Positions 7,860-14,224 of a stretch of 64,000 bases of DNA are shown here, one piece after another. The position numbers were made by a program, and so were the translations under genes. Within the stretch, counting starts at the first letter, position 1, and each line of letters begins with the position of its first letter. The notes under the pieces are model-generated. The model was given only the letters and a program-made list of their open reading frames with translations, ran no database searches and had not been told where the DNA came from. This stretch comes from Tropicimonas sp. IMCC6043 (GTDB lineage Bacteria; Pseudomonadota; Alphaproteobacteria; Rhodobacterales; Rhodobacteraceae), in contig NZ_SELO01000007.1 of the NCBI RefSeq assembly GCF_004146235.1, positions 62,001 to 126,000 of the forward strand. The letters run 5' to 3'.

Positions 7860-8462
7860 ATGTCCAAAGCCCTGATCGTCATCGACGTCCAGAACGATTT
7901 CTGCCCCGGCGGGGCGCTCGCCGTGCCCGGCGGCGACGAGGTCGTGCCCGTCATCAACACCCTGCTGCCCGATTACACGGTGCGTGTCTTCACTCAGGAC
8001 TGGCATCCCGCTGGCCATTCCTCCTTCGCCTCCGAACACCCCGGAAAAGCGCCCTTCGGGATGGTCGAGATGCCCTACGGGCCGCAGGTCCTCTGGCCCG
8101 ACCACTGCGTGCAAGGCAGCCCCGGCGCGAATTTCCACACTGGCCTCGAGACCGACCCCGCAGACCTCATTCTCCGCAAGGGGTTCCGCCGCGCCATCGA
8201 CAGCTACTCGGCCTTCTTCGAGAACGACCGGACGACGCCAACCGGGCTCGAGGGCTACCTGCGCACGCGCGGCGTCACGGCACTCACCATGGTCGGACTC
8301 GCCACCGACTTCTGCGTCCATTTCTCTGCCGTCGACGCCGGGCGGCTGGGGTTCGAGGTGACTGTCGACCTCGCCGCCTGCCGGGCGATCGACCTCGATG
8401 GCTCGCTCGCCGCGGCGCTGGACGCGATGCGCGAAGCCGGTGTCACCCTGACCGGCGTCTGA
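7860..8462 (+). CDS. pncA: Nicotinamidase/pyrazinamidase
   Basis: 200 residues, isochorismatase-like fold. The catalytic triad is visible as Asp9 (VIDVQNDF), Lys107 (ILRKGF) and Cys152 (GLATDFCVHFSA), with the metal-site cluster TQDWHP at 45-50. It deamidates nicotinamide to nicotinate in NAD salvage, in the cytoplasm. A good Shine-Dalgarno (CAGGAGG) precedes the ATG. The next gene, pncB, uses its product, so the two form a functional pair, although a 210-base gap suggests separate promoters. Confidence 0.95.
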   Translation: MSKALIVIDVQNDFCPGGALAVPGGDEVVPVINTLLPDYTVRVFTQDWHPAGHSSFASEHPGKAPFGMVEMPYGPQVLWPDHCVQGSPGANFHTGLETDPADLILRKGFRRAIDSYSAFFENDRTTPTGLEGYLRTRGVTALTMVGLATDFCVHFSAVDAGRLGFEVTVDLAACRAIDLDGSLAAALDAMREAGVTLTGV

Positions 8463-8672
8463 TCGAGGGGCAGGGGGCTCGTCGAGATTCCGTAGGGCCA
8501 AAAGCGACCCTGCCCGTTGAGATCGAACCAGCCACGAAATGATCCGACCGGCACCGCACACATGTGGTTCGAAGCCCCGACGACGGATCTGCACACCGGA
8601 TGAGCGCCTGCCCTTTTCTTCCGGAACCAGCCCCGCTAGCCTGCGCGCCGCTGCAGAAGGAAGGGTCGGCAG

Positions 8673-9965
8673 ATGGTGGACATCGCCACGCGCGTTTGGA
8701 ATCACAAGTGGAAGATCGACCCGATCGTTCGGTCGATGATCGACACGGACTTCTACAAGCTGCTGATGTGCCAATCGGTGTTCCGCAACAAGCCGGACGC
8801 CAACGTTACCTTTTCGCTGATCAACCGGACGAAACAGATCCGCCTCGCCGAACAGATCGACGAGGGCGAATTGCGCGAGCATCTCGACTATGTCCGCTCG
8901 TTGTCGCTGACGCGCGGCGAGAGCACATGGCTGCGCGGAAACACCTTTTACGGCAAGCGCCAGATGTTCCGACCCGATTTCATGGAGTGGTTCGAGCAGA
9001 TGCGCCTGCCCGACTACAACCTGGAGAAGCGCGACGGGCAGTATGAACTGACCTTCGAGGGCAAATGGCCGGAGGTGATGCTCTGGGAAATCCCCGCGCT
9101 CACCATCCTGATGGAATTGCGCGGCCGCGCCGTCCTCAACCGGATGGAGAAGTTCGAGCTTCAGGTCCTCTATGCGCGGGCGACGACCAAGCTCTGGGAG
9201 AAGGTCGAACGGCTGCGCGAGGTGCCCGAATTGCGAATCGCCGATTTCGGGACGCGGCGGCGGCACTCCTTCCTCTGGCAGGACTGGTGCAATCAGGCCC
9301 TCATAGAGGGGCTGGGAGAGAGCTTCATCGGCACGTCGAACTGCCTGATCGCCATGCGCCGGGAGGTCGAGGCGATCGGGACTAATGCGCACGAGTTGCC
9401 GATGGTCTACGCCGCTCTGGCGGAGAATGACGCGGAACTCGCCCGCGCGCCCTACCGCGTTCTCGAGGATTGGCAGGAAGAGCACGAAGGCAACCTGCGC
9501 ATCATCCTGCCGGACACCTATGGGACCGACGAGTTCCTTGCCCGCGCGCCCGACTGGCTTGCCGGCTGGACCGGGATCCGGATCGACAGCGGCGACCCTG
9601 TCGCCGGCGCCGAGGCGGCGATCGCCTGGTGGAAGGCGCGCGGCGAGGATCCGACCAAGAAACTGGTGATCTTCTCCGATGGGCTCGATGTCGATGACAT
9701 CCTCGCATTGCACGACCGCTTCCACGGGCGTGTCCGGGCCAGTTTCGGTTGGGGAACGCTTCTGACCAACGACTTCCGCGGTCTGGTGCCGAACGATGCG
9801 CTGCGTCCCTTCTCGCTGGTCTGCAAAGCGGTGTCTGCCGGTGGCCGACCGACCGTCAAGCTCTCGGACAATCCCAACAAGTCGATGGGGCCGGCCGCGG
9901 AGATCGAGCGCTACAAGCGGGTCTTCTCCGTCGGAGAGAAGACGCCGATCGACGTGATGGTATAA
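8673..9965 (+). CDS. pncB: Nicotinate phosphoribosyltransferase
   Basis: 430 residues, the usual length for bacterial PncB. Landmarks include [15 protein letters not shown] near the N-terminus, the conserved [14 protein letters not shown] (regulatory/phosphorylated-histidine region), [10 protein letters not shown] and [12 protein letters not shown] in the phosphoribosyl-diphosphate binding half. It converts nicotinate and PRPP to nicotinate mononucleotide with ATP hydrolysis, completing with pncA the salvage of nicotinamide. GCAGAAGGAAGG lies upstream of the ATG. It is convergent with arfB, with 24 bases between the stops. Confidence 0.95.
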
Positions 9966-9989
9966 CGGCCGCGTCCGCGCGGGAGCTCG

Positions 9990-10412
9990 TCACTCCTCGT
10001 CGGTCACGCGGCCGCGGAGCGATTTGACCGCGCCGCGATGGGTTTTGGCGTCCAGCCGCCGGCGTTTCGAGGCCAGCGTCGGTCGGGTGGCGACGCGGCG
10101 TCGTGGCGCAACGAGGGCCCTTCGGATCAGCTCGGCAAGCCGTTCACGCGCGATCTCCCGGTTTCGGGCCTGGCTCCGGGTTTCCTCCACGCGCAACAGG
10201 ATCGCGCCCTCAGCGGTCCAGCGCCGCCCGGCCAGGCGTTTCAGGCGGGCCTTCACCGGAGCAGGGAGGTTCGGGCTGCGCGCCGCCTCGAACCGCAGCT
10301 CGACGGCGGTCGAGACCTTGTTCACATTCTGCCCGCCGGGGCCCGATGCCCGGGTGAACTGCTCGGTGAGCTCCCATTCCTCGATGCTTGTATTGTCGTC
10401 GATCCGTATCAT
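9990..10412 (-). CDS. arfB: Alternative ribosome-rescue factor ArfB (YaeJ-type peptidyl-tRNA hydrolase)
   Basis: 140 residues from the ATG at 10412; the frame continues upstream but the family similarity starts at MIRIDDNTSIEEWEL. The release-factor catalytic motif GGQ is present in ASGPGGQNVNKVSTAVEL. The arginine/lysine-rich C-terminal tail (about residues 100-140) is the part that enters the empty mRNA channel in ArfB. It hydrolyses peptidyl-tRNA on ribosomes stalled without a stop codon. It lies directly downstream of the structured RNA candidate at 10596-10783, in the same orientation but beyond that RNA's terminator. Confidence 0.92.
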   Translation of the reverse strand: MIRIDDNTSIEEWELTEQFTRASGPGGQNVNKVSTAVELRFEAARSPNLPAPVKARLKRLAGRRWTAEGAILLRVEETRSQARNREIARERLAELIRRALVAPRRRVATRPTLASKRRRLDAKTHRGAVKSLRGRVTDEE

Positions 10413-10595
10413 CTTCGGCCACCTTCGGGGTCTTGCTACCGAAATCCCGACGGCGGAACCAGCCCCGACCGTGTCGCGAGGGGATCGAAGCCGCGACGGC
10501 CGCCCCGATCGCGATTCGGAAGGATGCGGCGGCGAATGCGTGCTGCGCCGGCCTCCTCTCTGGGCCAGACGATGCCCGGAGCGGTCCTGCAAACG

Positions 10596-10626
10596 AAAAG
10601 GGCCGTCCCCTTCCTGGGAACGGCCC
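10596..10626 (-). terminator. Rho-independent terminator of the small RNA candidate
   Basis: On the minus strand an 11-bp GC-rich stem (GGGCCGTTCCC with GGGGACGGCCC, one G-U pair, 5-base loop) is followed by TTTTCGTTTG. It ends transcripts that start at about 10783, before arfB. Confidence 0.8.
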
Positions 10627-10696
10627 TCCGAGCTATCGTGGAGGTGAGGTCTCGTGGACCCATAAGTCCGTCAGGTGGCAAAGCCCTTTGGGCTGC

Positions 10697-10753
10697 CTAG
10701 AGGCGAGCCGCCCTGATACTCCTGACACCTCTCTCCAGCATGACTCTCGACAC
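10697..10753 (-). CDS. 18-residue upstream/leader peptide candidate inside the small RNA
   Basis: A GTG start at 10753 sits seven bases after a perfect GGAGG and opens an 18-codon frame (MSRVMLERGVRSIRAARL) ending in TAG at 10697. The peptide is basic with six arginines. A longer frame on the same RNA, from the GTG at 10762 inside the Shine-Dalgarno sequence to the TAG near 10635, also avoids stops and ends in ...WVHETSPPR, but its start would overlap the ribosome-binding site. Which frame, if any, is translated is open. Confidence 0.4.
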   Translation of the reverse strand: MSRVMLERGVRSIRAARL

Positions 10754-10788
10754 TGGATCACCTCCTTTCGCTGATTTCGGTTGAGCTC

Positions 10789-10816
10789 AGCGTGACACAG
10801 AAGTGTTGCCTGTCAA
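10789..10816 (-). promoter_or_regulatory. Putative sigma-70 promoter of the small RNA
   Basis: Minus-strand TTGACA (10811-10816), a perfect -35 box that overlaps the yhhQ stop codon, is followed after 16 bases by CACGCT (10789-10794) as a degenerate -10. Predicted start is near 10783. Confidence 0.5.
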
Positions 10817-11445
10817 TGAATTTTCGCGGGCTGGGCGGAAAGCCGCGTGACGATGATGCGGAAGGGGATCAGTGCAATGAGCGCCAGTCCCAGCTTTACC
10901 ATCCAGTCAGCCAGCGCCAGGGAGGCCCAGAGCGGGGCTTGCGGACCAATGCCGAGGAGCGGCAGGCTGTCCTGCGCCCAGGCCGGAATATTTCCGGATT
11001 CCAATCCGTTGAAGGTTGCGGAGAAGGCGATGGAGAAGAAGATCAGCGTGTCGAGCGACGAGCCGATCAACGTCGACATGAGCGGCGCCCGCCACCAACG
11101 TCCTTGCCGCAGCCGGTCGAAGACCGCGATATCCATCAACTGGGCTGCCAGGAAGGCCGTGCCCGACCCGATGGCGACTCGCAGCGTCACCAGCGGCCCG
11201 AACTCGCCCTGGATCTGGCTGCCGATCAGCGAGCAGAGGATGCCGACGAGGAAGCCGGTCAAAACCACGCGACGGGCCGGACCCGGACCGTAGAGACGGT
11301 TCATCAGGTCCGTGACGAGGAAGGCGAACGGGTAGGTGAGCGCGCCCCAGGTCAGCCATTGGCCGAGCAGATGCTGCACAAGGATGTTGGAGGCCACCAC
11401 GATAACGGCCATGGCGAGGATGCCGGGGAGATAGGGTCGCGACAT
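10813..11445 (-). CDS. yhhQ: Queuosine-precursor transporter, YhhQ/VUT family
   Basis: 210 residues from the ATG at 11445 (AAGGA 10 bases upstream); an upstream in-frame start at 11553 adds only non-conserved sequence. About six transmembrane segments are visible, starting with YLPGILAMAVIVVASNILV, and the family core includes YPFAFLVTDLMNRLYGP (about residues 35-52) and IGSQIQGEFGPLVTLRVAIGS. These inner-membrane proteins import preQ0/preQ1 for tRNA queuosine. No queuosine synthesis gene is adjacent. I looked for a preQ1 riboswitch upstream and saw none. Confidence 0.88.
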   Translation of the reverse strand: MSRPYLPGILAMAVIVVASNILVQHLLGQWLTWGALTYPFAFLVTDLMNRLYGPGPARRVVLTGFLVGILCSLIGSQIQGEFGPLVTLRVAIGSGTAFLAAQLMDIAVFDRLRQGRWWRAPLMSTLIGSSLDTLIFFSIAFSATFNGLESGNIPAWAQDSLPLLGIGPQAPLWASLALADWMVKLGLALIALIPFRIIVTRLSAQPAKIH

Positions 11446-11719
11446 GGTCTGTTGTCCTTGATCGGTATCAGGTCGGCCGGTCAGGTGGCCGGGGGCTGCA
11501 TGTCCCGCTTTCCGGGAAGCCGACTGCGTAGCGAAGTCCGGAGCGAATAACAATCCCCGCGGTGCCCCTGCGGCAAGCCCTGAAGGGCCGCTGGAACTGC
11601 AAGCGAAGGATTTGGACTATGTTTCAAGCGGATCGGGCATCGGCATTAGGCGGATCTTAAACAGGATCTCTCAAACATGCGGCGTGGCTCAGAAGAGGCC
11701 GGCGCAAGGAGGATCTCGC

Positions 11720-13351
11720 GTGCAGAACGTACTGGGTGTCTGGGCAGGGCTGAACACGCGCCGCAAGGCGATCGTGATCGCCGCCACTCTGGCGATGTTC
11801 GCCACGGTGCTCGCCCTGTCCCAGATCGTCACGTCGACGCGGATGGACCTGCTCTATGCCGGGCTCGAGACCCGTGCGGCCGGCGAGGTCGTTGCTGCGC
11901 TCGAACAGGAAGGGGTCGCCTACGAGGTTCGGGGCACGTCGATTTATGTCGACGCGTCGCGGCGGGACGCGCTTCGCATGGTCCTCGCCAGCCAGGGTTT
12001 GCCGGCCAACGGCGCGGCCGGCTACGAACTGCTCGATACGCTGACCGGCTTCGGAACAACCGCCCAGATGTTCGACGCGGCCTACTGGCGCGCCAAGGAA
12101 GGGGAACTTGCCCGGACCATCCAATCGAGCCCGCAGGTCCGCGCCGCGAGGGTGCATATTTCGACTCCGCCCGCGAGCGGGTTTCGCCGCGATGCCGGCG
12201 CGACGGCCTCGGTGGTGGTCACACCGGCCGGGGTGCCGCTGTCGGAGGCCAACGGGCGCGCTCTGCGCTACCTCGTCGCTTCCGCCGTACCTGGCCTGAG
12301 GCCCGAGAATGTCTCGGTGATCGATGGCGAGAGCGGGGTGGTCCTCGGTGGCGAGGAGACGCCGTCCGTCGAGTCCGCCAAGCGGGAGGCGGCGCTCAAG
12401 CACAACGTCGAACGGCTTCTGGAGGCACGCGTTGGCCCCGGCAACGCGATCGTCGAGGTGAGCCTGGAAGCGGTCACCGAGCGAGAGTCGATCGTCGAGA
12501 CGCGGTTCGATCCCGAGGGGCGCGTCGCCATAAGCACCGAGACGGAGGAGCGCAGTTCCTCGTCGAGGGATGCGCGTGGCGGTGGTGTCACCGTCGCGAG
12601 CAACCTCCCCGACGGTGACGCCGGCTCTGGCGGCGGCCAGCAGGCGGAACAGGACAGCGAAACCCTCGAGCGCGTCAATTTCGAGGTTTCCGAGACTCAA
12701 CGTGAGATCCTGCGCGTGCCAGGGGCAGTCAAGCGGATCACTGTCGCGGTCCTTGTGAATGCGGTCCCGCAAACCGGCGATGCCGGCGGGGCGACGGTCG
12801 CGCCGCGCTCCGAGGAAGAACTCGCAGACCTCCGCTCGCTGATCGAGGCGGCGGTCGGTTTCGACGAGGCAAGGGGCGACCGGGTCACGATCCGCTCGCT
12901 GGAATTCCAGCCGGTTTCGCCGAGTGGAAGCGGCCCGGCGGGCGGTATGCTGGATGGCCTTGATCTCCTGTCGCTGGCGCAGATCGCCGTTCTGGCGGTC
13001 GTGGCGCTTATCCTCGGTCTGTTCGTCGTCAGGCCGATCATGACCAACAGGAGCGCGCCGCAAATGCTCGAGCTTGCGCAACCGCCCAAGATCTCCAAAG
13101 CCAGTGCAGTCGAGGGGGCTGCGGATGCGCCCGATGCGGCACTGACCGGTGAGATCGACAGCGGCGACGATGAGAATGGTCTGCCGGATATCGGCGGCTT
13201 CGGCGGGAACATGGCCGGCGGCCTGCCGATGCAGCCCATGGAAAGCAACGATCCGGTCGACCGGCTGCGGCAATTGATTCGGGATCGACAGCAGGAAACG
13301 GTCGAGGTCCTGAAAAGCTGGATGGAAGACGACAAGGAAAGCGTGAAATGA
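11720..13351 (+). CDS. fliF: Flagellar MS-ring protein FliF
   Basis: 543 residues from the GTG at 11720, chosen because AAGGAGG lies seven bases upstream; the frame is open from 11612 but without conserved sequence. An N-terminal membrane helix (IVIAATLAMFATVLALSQIV) is followed by the YscJ/FliF ring-building motif 1 (MDLLYAGLETRAAGEVVAAL), the conserved FGTTAQMFDAAYWRAKEGEL and VRAARVHISTP, a central low-complexity stretch (about 270-320), a second helix (LAQIAVLAVVALILGLFVV) and a C-terminal acidic tail that binds FliG. The length is usual. It opens a four-gene flagellar operon and overlaps the next gene by four bases. Confidence 0.95.
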   Translation: MQNVLGVWAGLNTRRKAIVIAATLAMFATVLALSQIVTSTRMDLLYAGLETRAAGEVVAALEQEGVAYEVRGTSIYVDASRRDALRMVLASQGLPANGAAGYELLDTLTGFGTTAQMFDAAYWRAKEGELARTIQSSPQVRAARVHISTPPASGFRRDAGATASVVVTPAGVPLSEANGRALRYLVASAVPGLRPENVSVIDGESGVVLGGEETPSVESAKREAALKHNVERLLEARVGPGNAIVEVSLEAVTERESIVETRFDPEGRVAISTETEERSSSSRDARGGGVTVASNLPDGDAGSGGGQQAEQDSETLERVNFEVSETQREILRVPGAVKRITVAVLVNAVPQTGDAGGATVAPRSEEELADLRSLIEAAVGFDEARGDRVTIRSLEFQPVSPSGSGPAGGMLDGLDLLSLAQIAVLAVVALILGLFVVRPIMTNRSAPQMLELAQPPKISKASAVEGAADAPDAALTGEIDSGDDENGLPDIGGFGGNMAGGLPMQPMESNDPVDRLRQLIRDRQQETVEVLKSWMEDDKESVK

Positions 13352-13950
13352 GCCGACTTTGGGACTTGGACAGCTTCGACACGGCAGACCCGGTTTCATC
13401 ACCGGCCGCCCAGCCCGTCGAGGCGTTGACAGAGGATGAGCGGCTTCAGGCCTTCGACGCCGGATACAAGGACGGCTGGGACGATGCGGCAAGGGCACAT
13501 GCCGAAGATCAGAACCGGATATCGGTGGAACTGGCAGGGCACCTCCAGGAGATGTCCTTTACCTACCACGAGGCCCGAAACGCCGTTCTCGGCGAGATGG
13601 AAGGTATTCTGAAAGGCATGGTTTCGAGCATCCTGCCCAGGACGATGGAGCATTCGCTCGGCCAGATGATCGTGGAAAGGGCTCTCGAGGCCAGCGCCAC
13701 GGCGGCCGACATCGCGTTCGAAGTCGTGGTCAGTCCAGCCAATACTGCTCGCGTCCGTACCCTCCTCGAGGGAATGATCGCGCCGCCGCTCGAGGTGGTC
13801 GCGGAGCCGACGCTCGGGGAGGGGCAGGCATTCCTGCGGCTCGGCCACTCCGAACAGAAAATCGACCTCGAAGCCGTTCTTCAGGGCCTTTCGGAGGCCG
13901 TAGATGAATTCTTCGAAACTCCTGAAAATCTGGAGGCACGCCATGGGTGA
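13348..13950 (+). CDS. fliH: FliH-like flagellar export-ATPase regulator
   Basis: 200 residues starting on the ATGA overlap with fliF. The sequence has the FliH layout: an N-terminal AFDAGYKDGWDDAARAHAED helix with spaced small residues (about 35-54), a helical middle and a C-terminal beta/alpha half of FliH/HrpE type (VVVSPANTARVRTLLEGMI, about 130-150). FliH proteins hold the FliI ATPase at the flagellar export gate. Similarity in this family is weak, so the name rests on position between fliF and fliN as much as on sequence. Confidence 0.7.
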   Translation: MSRLWDLDSFDTADPVSSPAAQPVEALTEDERLQAFDAGYKDGWDDAARAHAEDQNRISVELAGHLQEMSFTYHEARNAVLGEMEGILKGMVSSILPRTMEHSLGQMIVERALEASATAADIAFEVVVSPANTARVRTLLEGMIAPPLEVVAEPTLGEGQAFLRLGHSEQKIDLEAVLQGLSEAVDEFFETPENLEARHG

Positions 13951-14224
13951 TGCGCGGAACGAGGGTGGACATCCGTTTTCCATGGTCCCGGTCGAGGTCA
14001 CCGTGTCGGTCGGGCGTGCGCGACCGAAGATCGCGGATCTGCTCAAGCTGGAGCGCAACGCGGTCCTGATCCTCGACCGGAAGGTCGAGGATCCCGTGGA
14101 GCTTTATGTGGGCGACAAGCTCATCGCGCGTGGCGACCTGATCGAGCAGGAAGGAGACCAGGCCGGCCAGCTCGCCGTGCGCCTCACCGAGATCGCCGGT
14201 CCCGCCGACGACGGGACGAGATAG
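13943..14224 (+). CDS. fliN: Flagellar motor switch protein FliN
   Basis: 93 residues from the ATG at 13943, preceded by GGAGG six bases upstream and overlapping the fliH stop by eight bases; an earlier ATG at 13904 lies deep inside fliH. The SpoA domain is complete: VPVEVTVSVGRARPKIADLL, then LDRKVEDPVELYVGDKLIARGDLI and the final VRLTEI strand. FliN forms the C-ring base and docks FliH. No fliG or fliM is visible in the window. Confidence 0.9.
   Translation: MGDARNEGGHPFSMVPVEVTVSVGRARPKIADLLKLERNAVLILDRKVEDPVELYVGDKLIARGDLIEQEGDQAGQLAVRLTEIAGPADDGTR

Follow-up and report, generated by a model that had tools for sequence, protein, structure and literature searches.

What might an RNA do that has a perfect 17-nt complement of the 16S rRNA 3' end, continues with an open reading frame (ORF) of 18 codons and carries in its tail a segment able to pair with its own Shine-Dalgarno (SD) sequence? 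This question is raised by a locus of Tropicimonas sp. IMCC6043 on the minus strand at 10596-10816 of the window (the whole 64,000-nt stretch of DNA analyzed here), where, as read from the sequence, a complete small transcription unit lies between yhhQ and arfB.

Layout of the unit

The unit and its two neighbors comprise the following elements.

10813..11553, minus strand: yhhQ, upstream neighbor; an ORF named after an earlier reading of the sequence, start uncertain
10811..10816, minus strand: -35 box TTGACA, read from the sequence; overlaps the yhhQ stop codon
10789..10794, minus strand: probable -10 box CACGCT, 16-nt spacer, preceded by TGT; a TGTG-n-CA-nn-CT-like stretch is conserved in 115 relatives
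10753..10769, minus strand: 17-nt perfect complement of the 16S rRNA 3' end, GAAAGGAGGTGATCCAG, by comparison with the genome's own 16S
10759-10768, minus strand: 10-nt SD AAAGGAGGTG, inside the 17-nt complement
10697..10753, minus strand: ORF of 18 codons, GTG start, TAG stop, MSRVMLERGVRSIRAARL, by sequence reading
10596..10627, minus strand: intrinsic terminator by predicted fold; 12-bp stem at 10627-10600, T-run at 10599-10596
9990..10412, minus strand: arfB, downstream neighbor, 184 nt past the T-run; protein with a GPGGQ motif

Conservation was counted over 119 of 120 fetched Rhodobacteraceae loci, one irrelevant 200-base stretch being left out; of the 119, 115 were located by the SD pattern and four by eye; five of the 119 contain an exact training sequence of the covariance model described below and were retained in these counts. 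The TTGACA that an earlier note on this DNA had placed over the yhhQ stop codon is present on the minus strand (10816-10811), and among the 115 relatives the best match to it is complete in 57 and 5/6 in 34, mostly 63-66 nt 5' of the start codon, against 0 and 17, respectively, in a control of one shuffle per relative (n = 115). The -10 box is weak, yet it has the A and the T most conserved at those places among the 115 relatives, and we infer a transcription start near 10780. A consensus scan called neither a promoter nor a terminator of the small RNA; the RNA's own promoter, claimed earlier on the strength of its boxes, is probable. As for the clean terminator claimed with it, the strong stem lies where it was placed (across the 88 loci whose arfB start was resolved, the stem energy averages about -21 kcal/mol), but in the window the U-tract is short. 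The predicted fold of the whole RNA reaches -84.6 kcal/mol (z -3.51), equaled by 1 of 200 shuffles. No tRNA or tmRNA was found when sought in 8000-14000, and an Rfam match to MEG8_3 at 11568-11632, below its own cut-off and to a eukaryotic family, was taken as chance.

A divergent Rhodobacterales relative of CC2171

The RNA is conserved well beyond the strain, as the earlier note's reading of it as a functional element would lead one to expect. A covariance model of the sequences of 50 Rhodobacterales-type relatives (R1) detects it in 174 of 198 Rhodobacteraceae genomes, nearly always as a single copy; among the matches listed, one Rhodobacteraceae genome has two. The Rfam family CC2171 (RF01867) matches 10777-10600 with 46.3 bits (E 6.7e-8), short of its gathering cut-off of 75, in an alignment that spans positions 1-159 of the model and places the 5' segment and the terminator with high posterior probability. 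The same model has a match at E up to 1 in 47 of 60 relatives, some of them weak, and its cut-off is passed by a single one of these 60 genomes, belonging to another family; class-wide, 61 of 289 genomes contain a match with an E value no higher than 0.001. Since the threshold is missed, we regard the RNA as a divergent relative of CC2171 and not as a member. Conversely, R1 has matches in 13 of 190 genomes searched across the class, and six of the ten matches outside Rhodobacteraceae fall on RF01867 places, which supports common descent and leaves it unproved. Taken together, the sequence comparisons support the view that the small RNA forms a Rhodobacterales branch akin to, though divergent from, the CC2171 family.

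A 22-base pattern taken from the 5' segment has exact matches in at least 120 stretches of named genomes, and the matches listed are, by their titles, nearly all from Alphaproteobacteria or unassigned Proteobacteria, with one from an Acidobacteriaceae MAG. On that contig the exact 22-base SD stretch stands ahead of a 104-codon ORF, which presumably encodes a protein of VirB3/TrbD type, so that an extended SD of this kind can be found on an ordinary gene too. A MAG titled Pararhizobium (CP051237.1) carries a Rhodobacterales-type RNA with no yhhQ match or arfB motif in the 8 kb covered, and mis-binning, transfer or misnaming would each account for it.

A conserved extended SD rather than a 17-nt duplex

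The exact 17-nt complementarity claimed for this site is borne out by the genome's own 16S gene: it ends in CTGGATCACCTCCTTTCT, to which GAAAGGAGGTGATCCAG is an exact complement. The string AAAGGAGGTGATCC occurs twice in the 5.46-Mb genome, at the small RNA locus and in 16S, and AAAGGAGGTG followed 4-8 nt on by RTG occurs at one site genome-wide, the small RNA locus, against two for a reversed control pattern. In 61 Rhodobacteraceae genomes the same pattern is matched 87 times and its reversed control 27 times, with a single match to the pattern in 37 of the 61; when sorted by their tails, 51 of the 87 resemble the small RNA, and the remaining 36 are at about the control level. The excess over the control, together with the RNA-like tails, indicates a recurring extended SD of an RNA family.

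What is kept within this segment is shorter than the full complement. AGGAGGTG is invariant in 115 loci and AAAGGAGGTG is kept in 112 of them (with four further loci read by hand), whereas position -5 is the most variable base of the SD extension (A71/G36/C8) and 57 of the 119 loci retain the full 17 nt, four of the loci that do not keep them having altered spacers. Removing the training-identical loci leaves 52/110 pattern-found loci with the 17 nt and 102/110 with 18 codons. Class-wide, the best-scoring loci of the Rfam search (the top 23 matches minus one missed by the pattern, and no random draw) keep AAAGGAGGTG in 22/22 and the full 17 nt in 6/22. Contiguity is lost mostly at -5, a base that lies unpaired between P1 and P2, the masking helices described below, and we take this to mean that selection follows the fold and an SD of roughly 10 nt, not a single long duplex with 16S. 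The 17-nt complement, which the earlier note had stressed, is thus rejected as a selected unit, being broken in many relatives.

A short ORF that seems kept for its translation

The tiny translatable ORF proposed after this SD is present as a GTG ORF with its frame kept in relatives: the start is GTG in 115/115 and the length 18 codons in 107/115, with TGA (52), TAG (42) and TAA (21) as stops. Among the 107 ORFs of this length, premature stops occur in 0/107 in frame 0 against 48/107 and 47/107 in the other frames, and the stop place is occupied by TGA (49), TAG (39) or TAA (19) and never by TGG. Judged from these counts, the frame, the GTG start and the stop position are under clear selection.

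Constraint on the peptide is less apparent. Differences by codon position are 0.187/0.190/0.236 over codons 2-12 and 0.617/0.583/0.387 over codons 14-18 of the 107 ORFs, so that a third-position excess is not marked and the C-terminal third of the peptide varies freely; there is some synonymous preference at codons 2, 9 and 11. The peptide has a conserved MSRxxLERGVGT, with most of the conserved residues on codons used by helices P2-P4, and the peptides of other orders have little in common beyond MS. A known peptide family for the ORF was rejected as a candidate: five peptides, all from outside Rhodobacterales, had no NCBIfam match above the cut-off, the four short ones having no match at all and an Azospirillum peptide a sub-threshold one to MamI (E 0.18). 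At three Azospirillum loci the ORF after the same SD has 57-59 codons and a signal-peptide-like start. With frame and stop kept and no clear constraint at the amino acid level, translation itself seems more important than the peptide made, though the preference at codons 2, 9 and 11 would allow for some selection on the peptide.

A predicted fold masking SD and start codon

Four helices, P1 to P4, link the initiation region, the ORF and the tail, with the following strands in the window.

10734..10757, minus strand: helix P2, UCCAGUGUC (10757-10749, start codon included) with codons 4-7 (10742-10734)
10724..10731, minus strand: helix P3, 5' strand GAGGTGTC, within the ORF, by covariation
10646..10653, minus strand: helix P3, 3' strand GAGACCTC, with a single mismatch in the window
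10711..10719, minus strand: helix P4, 5' strand, ORF codons 12-15, partner 10668-10676
10668..10676, minus strand: helix P4, 3' strand, after the stop, by covariation
10640..10646, minus strand: anti-SD arm CACCTCC, partner of the SD core at 10759-10765 (helix P1), by pairing and comparison

The four-helix structure was tested on two alignments. In the 50 training sequences, aligned without structure, 87.6% of cells are paired against 84.1% in shuffled alignments, and two-sided changes affect 58 cells against 25.5 (0/500 shuffles) and 13 pairs, a number to be read against 10-13 in slid versions of the structure and against 5/500 shuffles that reach 13. In the second set, 100 of the 114 relatives distinct from every training sequence (the first 14 being left out), 93.2% of cells are paired against 87.8% shuffled, with 179 two-sided cells against 51.8, 15 two-sided pairs against 8.5 and a covariation of 0.280 against 0.178 (each 0/500), while slid versions leave 32-50% paired; this alignment was made to the model's own structure and so favors it.

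Helix P4 covaries most, with two-sided changes in 8/9 pairs (one pair occurs as CG 22, AU 21, GC 17 and UA 15); in the window it forms partly, as UCAGG/CCUGA or a shifted GUCAGG/CCUGAC. P3 has two-sided changes in 4/5 family pairs and genus-level compensatory changes seen by eye in two loci (GGUAUC/GAUACC and GGUUUU/GAAACC), and its register in the host's genus is shifted by two columns relative to the rest. P2 is paired in 94.2% of cells of the 100 non-training sequences, with a similar hairpin in the window fold, and P1, which joins the SD core to an arm of the form C(A/G)(C/U)CUCC, in 98.9%. Only the arm side of P1 varies, by G-U, because the SD core is invariant; two-sided covariation is absent, and on these alignments the pairing is kept, yet unproved by two-sided change. 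The test that the earlier note had proposed, compensatory change in GGAGGTGA/TCACCTCC (the latter at 10647-10640, minus strand), is therefore neutral for that pairing, and the helices that do compensate are the others.

Further support for masking comes from pairing statistics. Among Rhodobacterales-type loci the 3' UTR contains the best complement of the SD core in 51/51, and the arm's complement to the core beats dinucleotide shuffles in 45/51. Folding probabilities were computed for 152 distinct RNAs from 166 loci, eight being armless by the pattern and duplicates or short ones dropped: at full length the mean probability of the SD being paired with the arm is 0.919 (above 0.5 in 143/152, below 0.1 in 4/152), whereas in RNAs cut before the arm the mean probability of the SD being paired is 0.44. 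Across the family, the start codon has a high probability of being paired (0.84-0.89) at all lengths tested. In the window RNA the SD-arm probability is 0.966 at full length, in agreement with the earlier description of a discrete RNA whose tail can mask the SD; an alternative pairing of the arm with ORF codons 6-8 was discarded, its predicted probability being 0.013. The window SD is already largely paired before the arm is made (0.88 at +60, 0.65 right before the arm), so that an argument from timing is weaker here than in the family. Because P3 and P4 bring P1 and P2 together, SD and start codon would both be covered once the arm is made, and such a covering fold is supported by the alignments and predictions.

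A small hairpin GGG-CARN-CCC directly 3' of the stop codon and, ahead of P3, a CCUAAC segment are conserved in many Rhodobacterales relatives, and either is a possible contact site for a protein or an RNA.

Genomic neighbors

The upstream neighbor is yhhQ, on the same strand, in 50/51 Rhodobacterales-type and 107/115 Rhodobacteraceae loci. For the downstream neighbor we take the GPGGQ motif as the mark of arfB, which lies on the same strand in 95/115 Rhodobacteraceae loci; its nearness to the RNA, which the earlier note thought might be chance, is accordingly not chance within Rhodobacterales. The motif is downstream in 42/51 Rhodobacterales-type loci (in five of them more than 700 nt off; some of the nine without it have short flanks) and in 0/99 of the other loci, again with some flanks short, which rejects an arfB leader as the whole story. 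With the arfB start resolved in 88 of 166 loci (eight without a terminator), the arfB ATG follows the T-run within 30 nt in 30/88 and within 50 nt in 48/88, the median distance being 43.5 nt. Such short gaps leave little room for a separate promoter; the 184 nt of the window would leave room for arfB's own.

At loci of other orders the recurring neighbors likewise look like translation or RNA-turnover genes: what we take to be an RNase R-like gene at six loci (five Bosea and one Methylobacterium MAG) and an RF3-like one, assigned on the same assumption, at five Microvirga loci.

Possible masking in other orders

The way in which the SD might be masked differs among orders. In Bradyrhizobium, 10/10 loci have the SD core's best complement within the ORF, as GUCACCUC; at the 0.05 level the complement exceeds shuffles for the core in 4/10 and for the extended SD in 7/10. 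In the SHC type the core complement is above shuffles in just 9% of 56 loci, amounting to no excess, and the complement of the extended SD beats shuffles in 45%, mostly within the ORF at UGGAUC..GCCUC; in the predicted folds of the SHC loci inspected, most of the SD is not part of the main helices. A pairing of early codons with the segment before the terminator is supported by a swap test in the SHC (p 0.011) and SSE (p 0.0007) types, and unsupported by the same test in Rhodobacterales (p 0.47) and Bradyrhizobium. Swaps were made within groups, as Rhodobacterales arms pair with any SD and cross-group swaps are uninformative for the other types, and they exclude the Acidobacteriaceae MAG contig and loci lacking a detected terminator. 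In Rhodobacterales, P1 occupies the place of the CC2171 closing helix.

Proposed mechanism and alternative explanations

We tentatively propose, as a reading that is plausible and by no means assured, that the locus encodes a small structured, self-masking mRNA, kept for its translation, that acts as a co-transcriptional gate of ribosome availability with arfB as a possible lineage-specific output. The ORF would sequester the start codon through P2 and the tail arm the SD through P1, and masking would be complete only after synthesis of the arm, right before the terminator. As long as the arm is unmade, the strong SD would be free to capture a 30S subunit; a prompt ribosome would translate the 18 codons and hold the RNA open, and otherwise the RNA would snap shut, so that the open or closed state could report ribosome availability. 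The read-out in Rhodobacterales, the least certain step, might be arfB via leaky termination, the RNA's own stability or pairing, or both. Roles as a switch or a leader are possible ones. 

A bolder extension, which we consider doubtful, is that CC2171-like RNAs are standalone ribosome-availability sensors of Alphaproteobacteria, with timed SD docking, an ORF indifferent to its product, ArfB tuning and order-specific masking. If this were true, the closed or open state would tune the rescue factor ArfB in Rhodobacterales, and the SD would be masked by a 3' arm in Rhodobacterales, by ORF codons in Bradyrhizobium and perhaps by ORF codons also in part of the other Hyphomicrobiales.

Several other explanations draw on the same observations. 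The RNA might be a cis leader or attenuator of arfB in Rhodobacterales, translation of the short ORF setting read-through into arfB: the gene lies downstream on the same strand in 95/115 loci, often within 30 nt (30/88) or 50 nt (48/88) of the T-run, and short U-tracts could permit read-through. Yet the motif is missing from 9/51 Rhodobacterales-type and 99/99 other loci (some flanks being short), the gap in the window is 184 nt, and no antiterminator was noticed in the predicted folds inspected, where the terminator is a separate hairpin; we hold this account to be rather unlikely. It is similarly improbable, in our judgment, that the locus is a dual-function or plain trans-acting sRNA whose single-stranded segments (CCUAAC and the CARN loop) pair with mRNAs and whose ORF is secondary. 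The related CC2171 is filed as an sRNA in Rfam, a member was predicted in Mesorhizobium huakuii (PMC5596092, in the portion available to us) and the conserved segments lie outside the helices, but the frame, GTG start and stop position are clearly selected and no seed common to Rhodobacterales and the other types was noticed by eye.

A conventional gene, encoding a small basic protein and furnished with a strong, self-regulated ribosome site, would explain the 18 codons kept in 107/115 loci and the conserved MSRxxLERGVGT. Most of its conserved residues, however, fall on P2-P4 codons, there is no marked third-position excess, the C-terminal third is variable, peptides of other orders share little beyond MS and the five non-Rhodobacterales peptides are without an NCBIfam match over the cut-off, and we regard such a gene as unlikely. 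Far less probable still is a decoy role, in which pairing of the 17 nt with 16S would tie up 30S subunits; such a role would fit the exact complement and its being the sole site of its pattern in the genome; the 17 nt are contiguous in just 57/119 Rhodobacteraceae and 6/22 class-wide loci, a loss that weakens the ribosome-sequestering idea of the earlier note, and in the full-length RNA the SD is for the most part engaged in cis pairing.

Comparison with known systems

Judged by titles and the beginnings of abstracts, none of the papers listed, mostly outside subscription journals, describes such an arrangement; the accessible parts of the Paracoccus and marine Rhodobacterales sRNA literature name no match, and the part of a ribosome-rescue review available to us (PMC8012679) has nothing on arfB control in the Rhodobacterales group. 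CC2171-like RNAs occur across Alphaproteobacteria and the literature passages at hand assign them no function, though in the excerpt at hand of a Caulobacter ribosome profiling study two former noncoding RNAs are said to be translated (PMC4117421). The RNA described here resembles CC2171 in its 5' segment GAAAGGAGGUGAUCCAGUGUC, its size, its terminator and its alphaproteobacterial host. In the Rfam consensus of CC2171, filed as an sRNA, most of the SD is unpaired, whereas here a 3' arm masks it and a selected 18-codon ORF has covarying helices inside it. With a Rhodobacterales branch that appears self-masked, translatable and conserved in frame though not clearly in peptide, an annotated sRNA becomes a testable ribosome-gated device, and its position ahead of arfB offers a concrete read-out for a possible coupling of ribosome supply and rescue.

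A type I toxin with a masked SD finds no counterpart here, since inspection revealed no hydrophobic peptide and the peptides are basic or mixed and variable. The Sinorhizobium trp attenuator rnTrpL carries tryptophan codons, and a column-wise table of the 107 ORFs contains no single-residue run that could serve as such regulatory codons. According to the passages available, rnTrpL is likewise a small alphaproteobacterial RNA with a translated ORF, of 14 codons, and a dual function, but it is leaderless (PMC10117765), whereas the RNA described here has a very strong SD. Pos19 of Rhodobacter sphaeroides is also a small coding RNA of a Rhodobacterales species; it differs in its 219 nt, its 150-nt ORF, its RpoE promoter and its position between cxp and fadB, and the available part of its description reports it in R. 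sphaeroides strains only (PMC5036791).

The closest working precedent is the DUF1127 upstream ORF of S. meliloti, in which, as described in the available part of the report (PMC12218461), the ribosome-binding site pairs with the ORF's own codons unless a ribosome binds in time, an arrangement that its authors propose to sense ribosome availability. The likeness is one of working principle; the read-out there is premature termination, probably by Rho, ahead of the DUF1127 gene and with no intrinsic terminator (PMC12218461), whereas the RNA described here ends in an intrinsic terminator of its own.
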